A DNA stretch of 47,022 bases, taken from positions 1-47,022 of the forward strand of contig CAJQHM010000049.1 of the NCBI GenBank assembly GCA_905478195.1. Reading direction: 5' to 3'. This document shows, piece by piece, positions 42 to 5,474 of this stretch (position 1 is its first letter; each line of letters begins with the position of its first letter). Under the pieces are notes generated by a model, which saw nothing but the letters and a program-made list of their open reading frames with translations, was not told the DNA's origin and did no database searches. The translations under genes were made by a program, and so were the position numbers. The stretch comes from an uncultured Pseudomonadales bacterium. GTDB taxonomy: Bacteria > Pseudomonadota > Gammaproteobacteria > Pseudomonadales > Pseudohongiellaceae.

Positions 42-122
42 AATGAATATCGACGGGAATTATGCAAAGCGGCTCTCAAATGATAATAAGCTATCGTGTT
101 GATAATTAAGGATATTAATTCC

Positions 123-755
123 ATGCCAGATCATGAAATAACCATAGACGTCTTCACCGATTACATCTGACCCTGGTGTTACCTCAGTACCGTGAGTATT
201 GAAAAATTGAAGCAGAACTACCCGGTGAAAACCCGCTGGATTCATTTCCCGCTACACCCGGAAACACCGCAGGAGGGCAAGTCTCTGGCAGAGCTGTTCG
301 CTGGTCGCGACCTCGCTCCGATGCGCGAGCGGATGAAGGGCCTAATGGCTGAAGCTGGGCTCGAGTATGGCGATCGCACGCACACCTTTAATAGCCGTCT
401 TGCCCAGGAGCTGGGCAAATGGGCCGACACCCAGCCAGGCGGAGAAGCTATTCATGATGCCCTGTATCGCAGCTACTTTGTGGACAATAAGAATATCAGT
501 TCTACCGAAGTGCTGGTGGACGTTGCTGAGGCGGTGGGCCTGGACGGTATTGAGGCCAGACGCATAATCGAGAATAGGGCATTTAAGAATGCCGTAGACG
601 AAGACTGGCAGCGCTCTCGAGAGCTTGGTGTTACTGGGGTGCCTACATTCCTGGGAAATAACCTGATTGTTGTCGGCTGTCAGCCCTACGAAACGCTAGA
701 GAAATTTGTCTTGCACCTAATGGAAACTAACTCGAAGCAGAATGAGGCATTATGA
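123..755 (+). CDS. DsbA/FrnE-family thioredoxin-fold oxidoreductase, probable selenoprotein (UGA-encoded Sec16)
   Basis: Read from ATG 123, the frame gives a 210-residue DsbA-like protein of the FrnE/2-hydroxychromene-2-carboxylate isomerase type, interrupted only by TGA at 168-170. That codon falls exactly at the first cysteine of the family's C-P-W-C site, giving V-F-T-D-Y-I-U-P-W-C-Y (U16, C19). The helical insert follows, then the conserved cis-proline loop G-V-T-G-V-P-T-F (P174). AAGGA at 108-112, about 10 nt before ATG 123, supports a start upstream of the UGA. The only downstream alternative, GTG 192, would remove the whole active site and first beta strand and has no ribosome binding site. 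A hairpin at 180-198 fits a bacterial SECIS element. Predicted role: cytoplasmic thiol/selenol oxidoreductase or isomerase (no signal peptide). Its stop overlaps the next gene by 4 nt. The alternative is a Cys-to-stop nonsense mutation; the otherwise intact frame argues against it. No sel genes lie in the window. Confidence 0.75.
168..170 (+). other. in-frame UGA, predicted selenocysteine recoding site
   Basis: TGA replaces TGT/TGC at the N-terminal catalytic cysteine of a C-x-x-C motif and is followed by CCC TGG TGT (P-W-C). Known bacterial selenoproteins of the thioredoxin fold often place Sec at this position. The family frame runs on for 195 codons after it. Confidence 0.7.
180..198 (+). 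promoter_or_regulatory. bSECIS-like stem-loop
   Basis: CUCA (183-186) pairs with UGAG (193-196) around the six-base loop GUACCG. UA (180-181) pairs with UA (197-198), leaving C182 bulged. The apical loop begins 16 nt after the UGA and opens with G-U. This resembles the E. coli fdhF element (short upper stem, one bulged base, G then U in the loop). The hairpin is short and was folded by eye, so the evidence is moderate. Confidence 0.55.
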
Positions 756-1420
756 TGTCCCGCAGAACCGCACTTGTGACTTGTATCGATAGCTACATGG
801 GCCCAGCCATCAGCGAGAAGTTTGAAGAGATTGGAATTAATGTTATAGCCGGCCCTTCTGATCTACATAGCGAGGCTCAGATAAATAAATTAGTCGCCGA
901 TGCCGGTCACATCGACATTCTCGTAGCCAATCTTGCCGAGCCGCCAATGACAGGCCCGGTGCAAAATATCGATAGTGATAACTGGAATCTATTATTCGAT
1001 TCCTTAGTGCATCCTCTGATGTATCTAGTCCGCGCGGTCACGCCACAAATGCTAGAAAGAAAAAGCGGAAAGATAATTGCGATCACCAGTGCCGCACCAC
1101 TGCGAGGAATCCCAAACAATGCGGCTTACTGTGCAGCCCGTGGTGCGCAGAATGGTTTTATCAAGGCAGCAGGACTGGAACTTGCGCGCAGCAATATTCA
1201 GGTCAATGCCATCGCGCAGAACTACATCAACAACAACACCTACTACCCAGACGACATACTCGACAATCAAAAATTTCTGAATCATGTTAAGCGTAACGTG
1301 CCTAGTAATAAGATAGGCGCGGCAAGCGAAACGGCGCAACTGGCAGCTTACCTTTCAAGAGAAGACTGCAGGCATATGGTTGGACAAGTGATTCCATTAG
1401 CGGGGGGATGGGCGACCTAG
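752..1420 (+). CDS. SDR-fold protein with halohydrin dehalogenase signature motifs
   Basis: This 222-residue protein has the SDR fold but lacks the glycine-rich TGxxxGxG cofactor motif. In its place it has T10-x4-Y15-x-G17 (T-C-I-D-S-Y-M-G), the nucleophile-pocket motif T-x4-F/Y-x-G of halohydrin dehalogenases. Its catalytic residues are S113-x12-Y126-x3-R130, with arginine where dehydrogenases have lysine; spacing and residues match HheC (S132, Y145, R149). The C-terminal half also follows HheC as I recall it (N-Y before a Tyr/Pro-rich stretch, H-V-K, G-Q-V, L-A-G-G). Predicted activity: reversible conversion of vicinal halohydrins to epoxides plus halide, and possibly epoxide opening by small anions, without NAD(P)H. 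ATG 752 overlaps the stop of the selenoprotein gene (ATGATG), implying translational coupling. The alternative is an atypical SDR of unknown function. Length is slightly below the usual 230-255. Confidence 0.65.
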   Translation: MMSRRTALVTCIDSYMGPAISEKFEEIGINVIAGPSDLHSEAQINKLVADAGHIDILVANLAEPPMTGPVQNIDSDNWNLLFDSLVHPLMYLVRAVTPQMLERKSGKIIAITSAAPLRGIPNNAAYCAARGAQNGFIKAAGLELARSNIQVNAIAQNYINNNTYYPDDILDNQKFLNHVKRNVPSNKIGAASETAQLAAYLSREDCRHMVGQVIPLAGGWAT

Positions 1421-1475: not shown

Positions 1476-2693
1476 CTATTCTTTTTCTGGCCCTGCTACC
1501 ACCCCAGTATCGTGTAGCTTACCGATCTCACTATCGGAAAGCCCCAGTGTATCTGCGAGTATCTCATCCGTATGCTGGCCCAGAATGGGGGCAGGCTTTA
1601 CAGGGACACTTTGCAATCCTTCGAAGTGCAATGGGTTCGATGGCATAAGGTATTCTCCTATACCCGGCTGCTCCACTCTTTCGAACAAGGGATTATCAAC
1701 ACTGCAATCAACGTCGTTCTCTACGAGTTGCTCTATGGTTTGATAAGGCCCCCAACATACAGAGGCCTCATCGAGAGATCGATACACGATTTGCGAATCT
1801 CGCTGCCCAAACCACGGCGCGAACAGTTCCCGCAGCTGTTCACTAGCCCTATAGCGATCTCCCTCCTTAAAAAAATCCAGCCCAAGTTCTAGCTCAAGTG
1901 CCGCCACCGCCGCTTCGGTCTCGGTGACCCTCACGATAGCCTTCCATTGATTCGGGCTAACACCAACTATCATTACTCGCTCGCCATCTTTACATTGAAA
2001 GTCGTGCCCGAAACTGCCGAAGACGTGATTACCCACTGCCTGACGCGGCGCCCGATTGACTTCCGCCTCGGCCAGATACCCAAGATGACCCATCGTGGCC
2101 AGAGCAACATCGGCCAGCGCAAGTCGTATAAACTGCCCCTGGCCATGAATTCGTCTATGACGCTCGGCTGTGAGCAGGCCAAGCGCTATGTGCTGTCCCG
2201 CTATAACATCCCAGGCAGGAAAGGGATTGTTGCTCGGGGTTTGCCCATCGCCGGTGAGAAACGGTAGACCTATCTTACTATTCACCGTGTAATCCAAGGC
2301 ACTACCGCCGTGGCGATCGCCGGTTAGATTCAGGTAGATAAGGTCAGGTCGCAACGCTCGCAACGCAGAATCTGCCAGCCAACCCTTCGCAGGAAAGTTC
2401 GTTAGAAAAATACCAGCGTCATCACCGTCCGCAGCGATAAGCTGGGTGATGAGTTGCTGACCCTTGGGTTTACGAAAATCTACGGCAAAGGAGCGCTTGC
2501 CTTTATTCAGGCTGTGCCAGTACAGGCTCTTGCCCTTGTCCGTTACGGGCCAGCGCCGATAATCGATTCCACCACCGATCTGATCGAAGCGAATGACATC
2601 CGCCCCAAGCTGCGCGAGAGTCATCCCGCCCGAGGGGGCCGCAATGAAGGCGCTGCCTTCGACGACACGCATACCACTTAGTAAAGCTTGCAA
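1476..2693 (-). CDS. mct: CoA-transferase family III protein, probable mesaconyl-CoA C1-C4 isomerase (Mct-like)
   Basis: This 405-residue CaiB/BaiF-family protein has an N-terminus (R-V-V-E-G-S-A-F, G-G-M-T-L-A-Q-L-G-A-D-V-I-R-F-D, then G-G-G-I-D-Y-R-R-W-P) closely resembling what I recall of Chloroflexus 2-methylfumaryl-CoA isomerase, which moves CoA intramolecularly between the C1 and C4 carboxyls of mesaconate. A-L-D-Y-T-V-N near residue 133 and the P-A-W-D-V-I-A-G segment also fit that subgroup. The start is TTG 2693, preceded by GGAG five bases upstream; the ATG seven codons in would cut off a conserved N-terminus. It is the last gene of a three-gene operon, 24 nt after a MaoC hydratase. 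A generic formyl- or succinyl-CoA transferase remains possible. Confidence 0.68.
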   Translation of the reverse strand: MQALLSGMRVVEGSAFIAAPSGGMTLAQLGADVIRFDQIGGGIDYRRWPVTDKGKSLYWHSLNKGKRSFAVDFRKPKGQQLITQLIAADGDDAGIFLTNFPAKGWLADSALRALRPDLIYLNLTGDRHGGSALDYTVNSKIGLPFLTGDGQTPSNNPFPAWDVIAGQHIALGLLTAERHRRIHGQGQFIRLALADVALATMGHLGYLAEAEVNRAPRQAVGNHVFGSFGHDFQCKDGERVMIVGVSPNQWKAIVRVTETEAAVAALELELGLDFFKEGDRYRASEQLRELFAPWFGQRDSQIVYRSLDEASVCWGPYQTIEQLVENDVDCSVDNPLFERVEQPGIGEYLMPSNPLHFEGLQSVPVKPAPILGQHTDEILADTLGLSDSEIGKLHDTGVVAGPEKE

Positions 2694-2717: not shown

Positions 2718-3575
2718 CTATTCGATGAGAAGATAGCCATTATTAATTACGATTTTGTCCTGCTCTACTGACTTACACAGAAACGTCATCTCATTTCCGT
2801 TGTTCCATATCTCCGTTCTAATAGTTTCGCCCGGATACACCGGTGCAGAAAAGCGCAATCGCATGCGCTTGAAACGCGAGGTATCGTAGTCACAACAACT
2901 CTTTAACAGCGCATGGGTTGCTACACCCATGGTGCACAGCCCGTGTAGGATTGGCGCTTTGAACCCTGCTGCCCTAGCCGCATCTGGCGATGCATGCAGT
3001 GGATTGAAGTCACCGGACAAGCGATAGATGAGCGCCTGTTGGGGCAATGTAGGCAGGTCGCAGACAATGTCTGGCTCAGTCTTGGGTATGAGATCCGTCT
3101 TCGAAGTCGACTTACGCTCGCCCCCAAATCCTCCATTGCCTCTCGCAATTATGGTTGTAACCAGCGTGCAAATGTCCTCTCCGGTGGCGACGTCACGCAC
3201 GACTCTGTCAGAAACTATTAGCGCTCCTATACGTTCGCCCTTGTCAGTAACTTCCGTTATTCGCGTCTTCGCCTCGACGGTGCCTTCACTAGGAAAAGGT
3301 CTATGCATGATGATCTCCTGCCCCAGGTGCAGAACCTTCAGCCAGTCGAGTCCGGTATCGTCTTCCCGCGCCCAGAAACCCGGATGCGCCATCATTACCG
3401 ACTGACTCGGCATTACTTTCAGGTTCTCTTCAAATACGAAGCGAAGGCACTCTTCATCTAGCGGGTCTATTCCCATTCCGATACCTAGCGCATATAACAT
3501 GCAGTCTTTGGTTGTATATGTCTGTTGAACAGGTGGAAAATTCTTGTTCAACAATCTGTTGGCATCGAGTGTCAT
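2718..3575 (-). CDS. MaoC-like type 2 enoyl-CoA hydratase
   Basis: This 285-residue protein has two hotdog halves, as in hydratase-2 enzymes. The C-terminal half carries the hydratase-2 motif Y-R-L-S-G-D-F-N-P-L-H (catalytic D189, H194), followed by G-F-K-A-P-I-L-H-G-L-C-T-M-G. The N-terminal half starts with Y-x-L-G-I-G-M-G-I-D-P, typical of the non-catalytic half that binds the acyl chain. The family adds water to trans-2-enoyl-CoA to give (R)-3-hydroxyacyl-CoA. It sits between an Mct-like transferase and an Mcd-like dehydrogenase, so the inferred substrate is a mesaconyl-CoA species, for example mesaconyl-C4-CoA to citramalyl-CoA (Meh role). That assignment rests on context; medium-chain enoyl-CoA is the alternative. 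Confidence 0.72.
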   Translation of the reverse strand: MTLDANRLLNKNFPPVQQTYTTKDCMLYALGIGMGIDPLDEECLRFVFEENLKVMPSQSVMMAHPGFWAREDDTGLDWLKVLHLGQEIIMHRPFPSEGTVEAKTRITEVTDKGERIGALIVSDRVVRDVATGEDICTLVTTIIARGNGGFGGERKSTSKTDLIPKTEPDIVCDLPTLPQQALIYRLSGDFNPLHASPDAARAAGFKAPILHGLCTMGVATHALLKSCCDYDTSRFKRMRLRFSAPVYPGETIRTEIWNNGNEMTFLCKSVEQDKIVINNGYLLIE

Positions 3576-3612: not shown

Positions 3613-5274
3613 TCAATTAGCATCTTCAATCAGTTCTCGGGCTACAACTTTAATCGCCAGCACTTCTTCTGCGCCTTCAAATATCGAGAGTACACGAGCA
3701 TCGACAAACAGCCGACTTACCGCGCTTTCTTCCGCATAGCCCATGCCCCCATGAATTTGCAGTGCTTCACGACTGAGCGTCTCCGCAGCGCGACAGCTAA
3801 ACAATTTCACAAGACTAGCCTCCATCTGTCCATTCCCCTCGTCCATGAGTTCCGCCACAGAATAACTGAACTGCCGTGCAGCCGTGAGCGTGGCTAACAG
3901 CCTAGCCAACTTCACCTTGGTAAATTGAAAGTCTGCCACGGCATTACCAAAAACTTTTCGGTCCTTCGCATAGGAAAGTGCACTCTCGAATGCTGCCTGC
4001 ATAACGCCGGTTGCCCTTGCCGCCGTTTGAATTCTACCACCTGCAAAACCGGCCATGGTGTAGTAGAAGCCTTTTCCCTCACCTTCCTCCTCGCCAACAA
4101 GATTCTCCGCCGGCACGAAGAAGTCTTCGAAGAACAAGTCATAGGAATGCATGCCACGGTAGCCAATAGTCGCAATTGCCTTTCCCTTTATCGTTCCCCC
4201 ACCTGCCTGCTCATGCGTAAATTGATGTCCTGCAAACGCCGGCTTCTCTACGAGGAAAAGACTAAGCCCTCTATGGCCTAGCGCAGGATCTGCATTCGTC
4301 CGGGCCAATACTACGAGCAGCTCAGATTTACCGGCAAAGGTGCACCAAGTCTTGCTACCGTTCAGTAGCCATCCATTCTCAACAGGTGTCGCCCTGAGTG
4401 AAACTGCGGCAACATCGGAGCCTGTATTGGGTTCGGTAATGGAAATCGCACAGAGTATTTCTCCAGCGGCGAGTGGCGGAAGCCATCTCTGTTGCTGTTG
4501 CTGAGTCCCTCCGCTTAACAAGGCTCTTGCTGCGATCTCCGGCCTTGTTATCAAGCTGCCGGCAGCGCCAAGAGAAGCTCGTGACAACTCTTCCGTGACT
4601 ACAATCATGCTCAGGCTGTCGGGTCGTGAGTCTGGTTGCAGCCCGCCGAAGCGTTCGGGTATACAAGTACCGAAACAGCCTAACTCTGCTGCTGGCCGCA
4701 ATATGGAATCGGGAATATCTTCATCGTTGCGATGGATCTGTTCAGCCAGAGGCATTACCACGTCATTCGCAAAACGAAAGAAAGTTTCCCGAACCAGCTC
4801 CTTCTCCTCATCCAGCAACGAAGGTAGTCGTTGCACATTCTTGTCCGCTATCTCAGCACCCAAACGCGCCAAACATTCTGAACTCGCATAAAGATCCAGT
4901 AGTTTCTTGAAACTTTCGCGCGCGTGAAATCCCAGAAGCTCGGATTTATCCAGATCTACATCTGACGCTCTAGCGATTAAACGATTTAAGACGGCCTGTA
5001 GAGTCTCGGCACAGAAACTCAAGGCAAGCTGCTGCGTTAGTGCATCTGTGGACAGGTTCTTGGCATAGTCATTAAATGCTGCTACTGCGGATAGTTCCGC
5101 GACAGAGAAAGCGAGCTCATAGCTTGGCAATTGCCAATCGTCGAGTAGCTTGCCGTCCAGCTTGTCATTAGTGGAACACTTGGCCTTGATGTTGGAACAG
5201 GCTCGCAGCACTTGCTGTTTGAGCGCAACAAGTTCCGCATTCGCTTCTTCAAGATGTGTAGAGTGTGATGCCAT
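3613..5274 (-). CDS. mcd: long acyl-CoA dehydrogenase, probable (2S)-methylsuccinyl-CoA dehydrogenase (Mcd-like)
   Basis: This is an FAD-dependent acyl-CoA dehydrogenase of about 553 residues with an N-terminal helical extension of roughly 150 residues before the usual three-domain fold. It shows the signature I-S-I-T-E-P-N-T-G-S-D, K-T-W-C-T-F-A, G-Y-R-G-M-H-S-Y and, near the C-terminus, I-H-G-G-M-G-Y-A and S-I-F-E-G-A-E-E, whose first Glu is the predicted catalytic base. Size (about 60 kDa) and the K-T-W-C-T-F and T-I-G-Y-R-G-M-H-S-Y segments match methylsuccinyl-CoA dehydrogenase of the ethylmalonyl-CoA pathway as I remember it. It is the first gene of the operon with the hydratase and CoA-transferase (37 and 24 nt gaps). 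ATG 5274 is taken as the start; TTG 5298 is an alternative, and neither has a clear ribosome binding site. Electrons would pass to ETF, which is not in this window. Confidence 0.68.
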   Translation of the reverse strand: MASHSTHLEEANAELVALKQQVLRACSNIKAKCSTNDKLDGKLLDDWQLPSYELAFSVAELSAVAAFNDYAKNLSTDALTQQLALSFCAETLQAVLNRLIARASDVDLDKSELLGFHARESFKKLLDLYASSECLARLGAEIADKNVQRLPSLLDEEKELVRETFFRFANDVVMPLAEQIHRNDEDIPDSILRPAAELGCFGTCIPERFGGLQPDSRPDSLSMIVVTEELSRASLGAAGSLITRPEIAARALLSGGTQQQQQRWLPPLAAGEILCAISITEPNTGSDVAAVSLRATPVENGWLLNGSKTWCTFAGKSELLVVLARTNADPALGHRGLSLFLVEKPAFAGHQFTHEQAGGGTIKGKAIATIGYRGMHSYDLFFEDFFVPAENLVGEEEGEGKGFYYTMAGFAGGRIQTAARATGVMQAAFESALSYAKDRKVFGNAVADFQFTKVKLARLLATLTAARQFSYSVAELMDEGNGQMEASLVKLFSCRAAETLSREALQIHGGMGYAEESAVSRLFVDARVLSIFEGAEEVLAIKVVARELIEDAN

Positions 5275-5474
5275 GGATGTAGGACTCAATCGAGACAAGA
5301 GTTTGCATGCTTACTGTATACCCTCTCAACGCGCCTTCTTCTAGAGGTCGTGTCTGAAGGAGCGGGTATTTTATTCGATATCGTCGGCAATTGCTAAGTA
5401 AGCCGGGCTATCGAAGAGACAGGCTAGGTCGTAGCGAGAGAATATCTGGAAGAATAATCGTAGAATCAAGGCAA

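Follow-up and report, generated by a model that had tools for sequence, protein, structure and literature searches.

The gene at positions 123–755 of the window, as we call the whole stretch of 47,022 nucleotides analysed here, is predicted from its sequence to encode a selenoprotein of the FrnE type, and we regard this assignment as almost certain. The forward-strand frame from ATG 123 to TGA 753–755 is a full DsbA/FrnE-type open reading frame (ORF) with TGA 168–170 as its sole interruption, and in the translation, which begins MPDHEITIDVFTDYI-U-PWCY..., this codon stands at the first Cys position of C-P-W-C. With the TGA read as Cys, the read-through product was aligned with profile positions 1–188 of the 191 positions of Pfam DSBA (E 1.6e-33). 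An initial annotation of this stretch had described a complete DsbA-like frame preceded by AAGGA and interrupted only at the nucleophilic Cys, and had proposed a probable selenoprotein. Frame, upstream motif and interruption were found as described, and the proposal is supported by the conserved UGA, the Cys homologues, a constrained covarying hairpin and the presence of sel genes. It had also foreseen that gene finders would start at GTG 192; the table-11 ORF list places the start exactly there, and because it begins at this codon the active site is lost. The coordinates of all features are compiled in Table 1.

Table 1. Features of the predicted selenoprotein gene and of the genes next to it (window coordinates).
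Feature	Position	Strand	Evidence
AAGGA, possible ribosome-binding site before ATG 123	108..112	+	sequence
Predicted Sec-FrnE/DsbA-like selenoprotein gene, 210 residues, Sec at 16	123..755	+	translation, Pfam DSBA, FrnE fold, conserved TGA
UGA, predicted to be read as selenocysteine (U-P-W-C)	168..170	+	TGA in 48/48 aligned genus copies; named relatives (best 80 of at least 584): TGA 79/80, TGC 1
Codon of likely resolving Cys19 of U-P-W-C	177..179	+	Cys in 48/48 genus copies and 120/120 mixed-set rows
Predicted bSECIS hairpin: stem 184–190/196–202, loop pair 191–194 around GU 192–193, bulged A195	184..202	+	pairing, double changes, frozen synonymous sites
Codon of Cys186 (GCQP), a third Cys, frequent among Sec forms in the genus clade	678..680	+	Cys in 65/90 Sec rows
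Halohydrin-dehalogenase-like protein (SDR superfamily), start overlaps selenogene stop (ATG 752)	752..1420	+	motifs, PDB matches
CoA-transferase family III, convergent neighbour	1476..2693	-	PF02515; best NCBIfam 2-methylfumaryl-CoA isomerase, 557 bits, below cut-off 725
MaoC-like dehydratase	2718..3575	-	PF01575
Acyl-CoA dehydrogenase	3613..5298	-	PF00441, PF02770, PF02771

With an E threshold of 1e-3, a first protein search matched 67 of 97 genomes. Within the genus, a close homologue was present in 48 of 61 genomes (own genome included), every one with a TGA inside, and all 48 aligned genus copies carry the TGA at the identical codon, within the motif D-Y-[IV]-U-[PL]-W-C-[YF]-L. Two sequences were left out of this alignment, namely a degenerate copy (L058, from G010) and one from another family of the order (L059). 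A larger search of the genus detected the selenogene in 67 of 84 genomes with 68 copies and one or two TGAs each; this search counts in-frame TGAs, and the exact codon position was established for the 48 aligned copies. The gene is absent from the other 17 genomes, all of which have selA, so that it is dispensable and other selenoproteins are likely to exist there.

In genome contigs, at least 584 relatives were confirmed, and the best 80 of them (the named relatives) were compared. The site is TGA in 79 of these 80 and TGC in a betaproteobacterial one (L143). They include OX638378.1 and OX638341.1 (uncultured Pseudohongiella) and NTJZ01000003.1 (OM182 bacterium MED-G28), and more Sec copies among these best 80 come from Alphaproteobacteria, Rhodospirillaceae and other records. 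The 48 genus copies and the 80 named relatives overlap, since some contigs belong to the same assemblies. The pooled set of 128 sequences, minus the TGC row and one N-containing row, came to 126, of which 88 are distinct. One record, titled as a metagenome-assembled genome of Klebsiella pneumoniae (L141), has a copy grouping with the alphaproteobacterial ones and is probably a mislabelled bin. Of 398 genomes sampled from the whole phylum, 128 had a match; among the matches listed, the window's own was the only one with a TGA inside, and one other match had an internal stop, a TAA (L156). All 29 outgroup rows retrieved show Cys at the two CxxC positions; 28 of them are free of internal stops, and L156 has its TAA. 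The initial annotation had suggested a comparison with homologues and had named random stop positions among relatives as an outcome that would speak against its reading; the comparison revealed TGA at one and the same codon and Cys forms elsewhere. A scan of viral contigs yielded no relative of the selenogene protein.

In a tree of 120 proteins, the 90 Sec rows were grouped together with L143 and a long-branch Cys row (L154) with support 100/99, and the remaining 28 Cys rows stood separately. A single origin of Sec is at most a possibility on these sequences: a branch dividing the Sec rows from all others occurred in 23% of 200 bootstrap trees, and long branches meet. Two further findings from the searches are recorded here. 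A FrnE homologue belonging to a different family of the order has CP-TGA-C, with the TGA at the Trp position and not at a Cys (L059:2018-2020, G063:C20), which may be due to an error, to decay or to another cause. Also, paralogues in G013 and G008 flagged with one TGA were discarded, as they are SPWS proteins in which the TGA is the ordinary final stop.

A nonsense mutation or a sequencing error at TGA 168–170, with the protein not made whole, is an extremely improbable explanation of these data. Decay does occur in the group, as the copy in G010 has acquired additional in-frame TGAs and its motifs are damaged; a second stop also lies in the aligned range of G060, G044, G024 and G053, but in each case it simply ends a product that is slightly shorter. 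However, the identical TGA codon recurs in many separate genomes, and the RNA downstream is constrained and covarying. Moreover, the protein 3′ of the hairpin is under purifying selection with a median dN/dS of 0.072 (49 of 946 pairs with dS in the usable range). On the other side of the balance, the codons 5′ of the UGA gave a median of 0.375 (437 pairs; at most 13 codons).

The true start could instead be GTG 192, as called by the ORF finder, giving a shortened protein without CxxC and an untranslated upstream frame. We consider this very unlikely, since the codon is GTG in 63 of the 88 distinct sequences, and the other 25 have GGG, GTA, GTT or GTC with no common start. In addition, U-P-W-C and the residues around it rank among the best conserved, and the outgroup rows described above have both Cys residues. 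A start at GTG 192 removes the active site from an enzyme that is present in 67 of the 84 genus genomes searched.

The predicted bacterial selenocysteine insertion element (bSECIS) is a 7-bp stem starting 13 nt after the UGA, closed by a 5-nt loop (191–195, C-GU-G-A) 20 nt after the UGA, in which GU are the second and third bases. The hairpin of the initial annotation, placed 16 nt downstream and given a loop opening with GU, differs from this one in slight details. From the 48 genus sequences, RNAalifold proposed this 7-bp stem, none of whose own pairs shows a double change there. Covariation was counted over the seven stem pairs plus the loop pair 191–194 (8 pairs, 48 genus rows): 99.7% of the cells are paired, 7 cells show a double change and the covariation score is 0.092; in 500 shuffles, none of these values was ever equalled. 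How many pairs carry a double change (301 of 500 shuffles) and how many further pair types occur (300 of 500) is unexceptional, because all double changes in the 48-row alignment sit in one pair. Among the 88 distinct pooled sequences, every pair holds in 86–88; pair 188–198 is changed from U-A to C-G in 4, and the loop-closing pair 191–194 covaries (CG 74, UA 6, GC 3, AU 2, GU 2, UU 1). Base 192 is G in all 88; at base 193, 77 have U and 11 have G.

Constraint on the RNA was also visible in the codons. Over codons +5 to +11 after the UGA, the mean normalised synonymous entropy is 0.13 versus 0.85 over 134 other columns (44 of 48 rows used), a value as low being reached in 0 of 100,000 random column sets, and the lowest 7-column window elsewhere has 0.69. 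The weak point of the hairpin is its predicted energy in the window, about −6.6 to −6.7 kcal/mol, which is ordinary for its composition (z −0.21; equalled or bettered in 79 of 200 shuffles), and no Rfam family scored above threshold in the window. A published bSECIS model sets limits of 3–9 nt for the loop, 4–16 bp for the stem and 16–37 nt for the distance from the UGA, with a G in the first two loop bases and an energy limit of −7.5 kcal/mol (PMC13188914). The geometry of the hairpin lies within these limits and its energy above the last one; the segment from the UGA to +43 reaches the energy limit in 34 of the 88 distinct sequences, the window's own not among them. Since some bSECIS elements are known not to satisfy the model (PMC13188914), this makes for a weaker match to the model and does not weaken the evidence from the UGA, the covariation and the sel genes. 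An alternative 4-bp hairpin (183–186/193–196) was rejected, as 7 of 47 distinct rows break it and double changes are absent from it.

The initial annotation had recommended a search for sel genes, their absence being an outcome that would refute its reading, and all four are present in the window's genome: selA (C136, 523 bits), selB (C133, 395.5 bits, with two SelB winged-helix domains), selD (C76, 278.9 bits) and the tRNA-Sec gene selC (C75, 67 bits, anticodon tca). This selD is fused behind a pyridine nucleotide-disulfide (FAD/NAD) oxidoreductase domain (L208:321-2594, 757 aa). Across the genus, selA was found in 76 of 84 genomes, and the eight selA-negative drafts (G005, G008, G017, G019, G023, G039, G055, G057) all contain the UGA gene. 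Four of them (G017, G023, G055, G057), including both that are more than 90% complete, have selB over the cut-off, and the selA/selB gaps are likely due to missing contigs. The remaining four (G005, G008, G019, G039; 65–85% complete) have the UGA gene with neither selA nor selB over the cut-off, reflecting either incomplete assemblies or loss of the machinery. As a second selenoprotein, formate dehydrogenase was dismissed: the best match in the own genome scores 300 bits, short of the family cut-off, and is free of internal stops. Two more places in the window where a UGA lies near a Cys codon (4223, 4502) run antisense within the acyl-CoA dehydrogenase gene and were set aside.

It is hardly conceivable that the UGA is decoded as another residue by suppression or a general code change, as TGA terminates 9 of the 37 large ORFs of the window (TAG 18, TAA 10). 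Nothing was found in favour of such decoding. Also, homologues have Cys at the site, selA, selB, selC and selD are present, and the hairpin lies where a bSECIS is expected. Following the established bacterial pathway, SelB carrying Sec-tRNA-Sec would bind the hairpin 184–202 and insert Sec at UGA 168–170.

The FrnE type named in the initial annotation is backed by sequence and by fold. The best sequence match among solved structures is Deinococcus FrnE (E 8.3e-22), and an AlphaFold2 model built from 47 sequences (pLDDT 92, pTM 0.87) has FrnE entries as its best structural matches (TM 0.86–0.89), with HCCA isomerases and kappa glutathione transferases lower (TM 0.71–0.75). In this model, strand 6–12 leads to helix 17–32, which places Sec16 just before the first helix. 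The proline of VPTF, which we take to be the cis-Pro, is kept in all 120 rows of the mixed set. A PF01323 domain, UPWC at the CP(W/F)C position and a FrnE-like fold are found together. Cys19 and Cys186 are the only Cys residues besides Sec16. At position 186, the 90 Sec rows have Cys in 65, Ala in 23, Ser in one and a gap in one, and 25 of the 29 Cys-form outgroup rows have Ala. The C-terminal CxxxxC is absent from the window protein; it occurs in many but not all FrnE members (PMC8945050). No hydrophobic leader was recognisable by eye in residues 1–15. Deinococcus FrnE has been proposed to be a cytoplasmic disulfide reductase (PMC8945050), and by analogy a cytosolic disulfide reductase role is the probable one here. 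Sec16 would attack disulfides, or else substrates that are oxidised or electrophilic in another way, and Cys19 would resolve it via a selenenyl-sulfide.

The gene downstream provides a hint at a client. Its product carries T-x4-Y-x-G and S-x12-Y-x3-R, and the best match is PDB 7b73 (E 1.4e-54; labelled SDR), presumably HheD2; halohydrin epoxidase B was matched at E 2.3e-43. Both motifs, T-x4-F/Y-x-G and S-x12-Y-x3-R in general form, are those of halohydrin dehalogenases (PMC11976700), and in the dehalogenase cluster they were found in 35 and 37 of 38 members, respectively, short frames included. From gene order and overlap, selenogene and dehalogenase gene are probably one transcript. The dehalogenase was detected in 55 of 84 genus genomes (E 1e-45, partial copies included), and 53 of these 55 also have the selenogene. 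In 45 of the 53 the two genes lie within 400 bp, in 5 they are 3.8–4.2 kb apart on one contig and in 3 on different contigs. The selenogene alone occurs in 14 genomes, neither gene in 15 and the dehalogenase alone in 2, one of which is G010 with its decayed selenogene. This co-occurrence has a Fisher p of 4.7e-7, kinship uncorrected. Judged by neighbouring sequence, the dehalogenase lies downstream in 30 of the 46 aligned copies with enough sequence (of 48) and at 37 of 77 loci with enough downstream sequence from the best 80 of at least 584 relatives. No dehalogenase was found beside the alphaproteobacterial copies among these named loci.

Some loci are recorded in their own right. The decayed copy of G010 (L058:2078-2533, G010:C185) adjoins an intact halohydrin-dehalogenase-like gene, and at G105:C14:372252-373554 a selenogene match with two TGAs adjoins a dehalogenase-like match with two TAAs, possibly a decay of the gene pair. 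In L118, L119, L129 and L139, another SDR (S-x12-Y-x3-K) is encoded on the opposite strand just downstream of the selenogene. Upstream, 46 named loci (e.g. L115; from the best 80 of at least 584) have a conserved opposite-strand protein, TPR-like by eye; the window begins too near the selenogene to contain this gene.

Whether this linkage has a functional meaning is, in our judgement, evenly balanced. The dehalogenase follows the selenogene in most genus genomes holding the latter, so that the dehalogenase step or its reactive product may be one client of Sec-FrnE. Its alternative, a general redox enzyme without any tie and a linkage that is merely inherited co-location, comes close to an even chance: the dehalogenase is missing in 14 of 67 selenogene genomes, and 0 of 21 related dehalogenase loci outside the genus have a FrnE-like neighbour in flanks of up to 1.5 kb a side. 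Yet nearly all dehalogenase genomes hold the selenogene, including the eight in which the pair is separated. A more specific proposal, a selenium-dependent two-enzyme unit of Sec-FrnE and halohydrin dehalogenase, is unlikely. In it, the dehalogenase would convert a marine halohydrin to an epoxide or catalyse the opposite reaction, while the selenolate would act directly on the reactive product or repair its damage. A selenolate is far more nucleophilic than a thiol. If true, a selenoenzyme would take part in the natural turnover of organohalogens. For the tie in general, the naming of a specific neighbour enzyme makes the substrate of Sec-FrnE testable.

Selenoproteins of this kind are already in print. 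DsbA 1 of the 2008 GOS survey is a PF01323 selenoprotein with UxxC (PMC2398784); its first table count is 63, taken here as Sec sequences. This survey bears out the statement of the initial annotation that Sec-containing DsbA-like proteins had been predicted in marine metagenomes. A 2026 review lists "DsbA-like protein form 1", also with UxxC (PMC13188914), DsbA-like families are tabulated in PMC1794560 and PMC5029168, and DsbA-like is named in a legend of PMC9402790. In the open-licence literature searched, we found no FrnE assignment of a selenoprotein, nothing linking Pseudohongiella to selenocysteine and no tie of halohydrin dehalogenase to selenoproteins or DsbA, apart from a protein-engineering paper that looks unrelated. 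The present analysis contributes the FrnE assignment, the covarying hairpin, the spread over Pseudohongiella/OM182 and Alphaproteobacteria, and the dehalogenase linkage. It places a selenoprotein group that is probably marine-enriched in the FrnE subfamily and adds a well-supported covarying bSECIS.

Compared with known systems, the hairpin resembles the bacterial SECIS consensus (PMC13188914) in its 5-nt loop, 7-bp stem, 20-nt spacing and second-base G followed by U or G, and in the pairing base preceding the loop G. It differs from this consensus in its energy and in the partner base, which comes right after G[U/G], so that an A or C is left bulged. SelB binds the E. coli element at U17 and G23 (PMC8659212). 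The neighbouring product, a putative halohydrin dehalogenase, shares both fingerprint motifs (PMC11976700) with HheD2 and HheB. With FrnE of Deinococcus radiodurans (PDB 5co3, 5xwh), the selenoprotein shares the fold (model TM 0.88–0.89), 29–30% identity and the CPWC position; unlike it, it has Sec in place of the first Cys and is without the C-terminal CxxxxC. The word FrnE does not occur in the main texts on DsbA 1 and form 1 (PMC2398784, PMC13188914), nor "dehalogenase" in the review (PMC13188914). With both families the window protein shares the PF01323 domain and U-x-x-C, and by comparison of descriptions rather than member sequences its group is likely DsbA 1/DsbA-like form 1.
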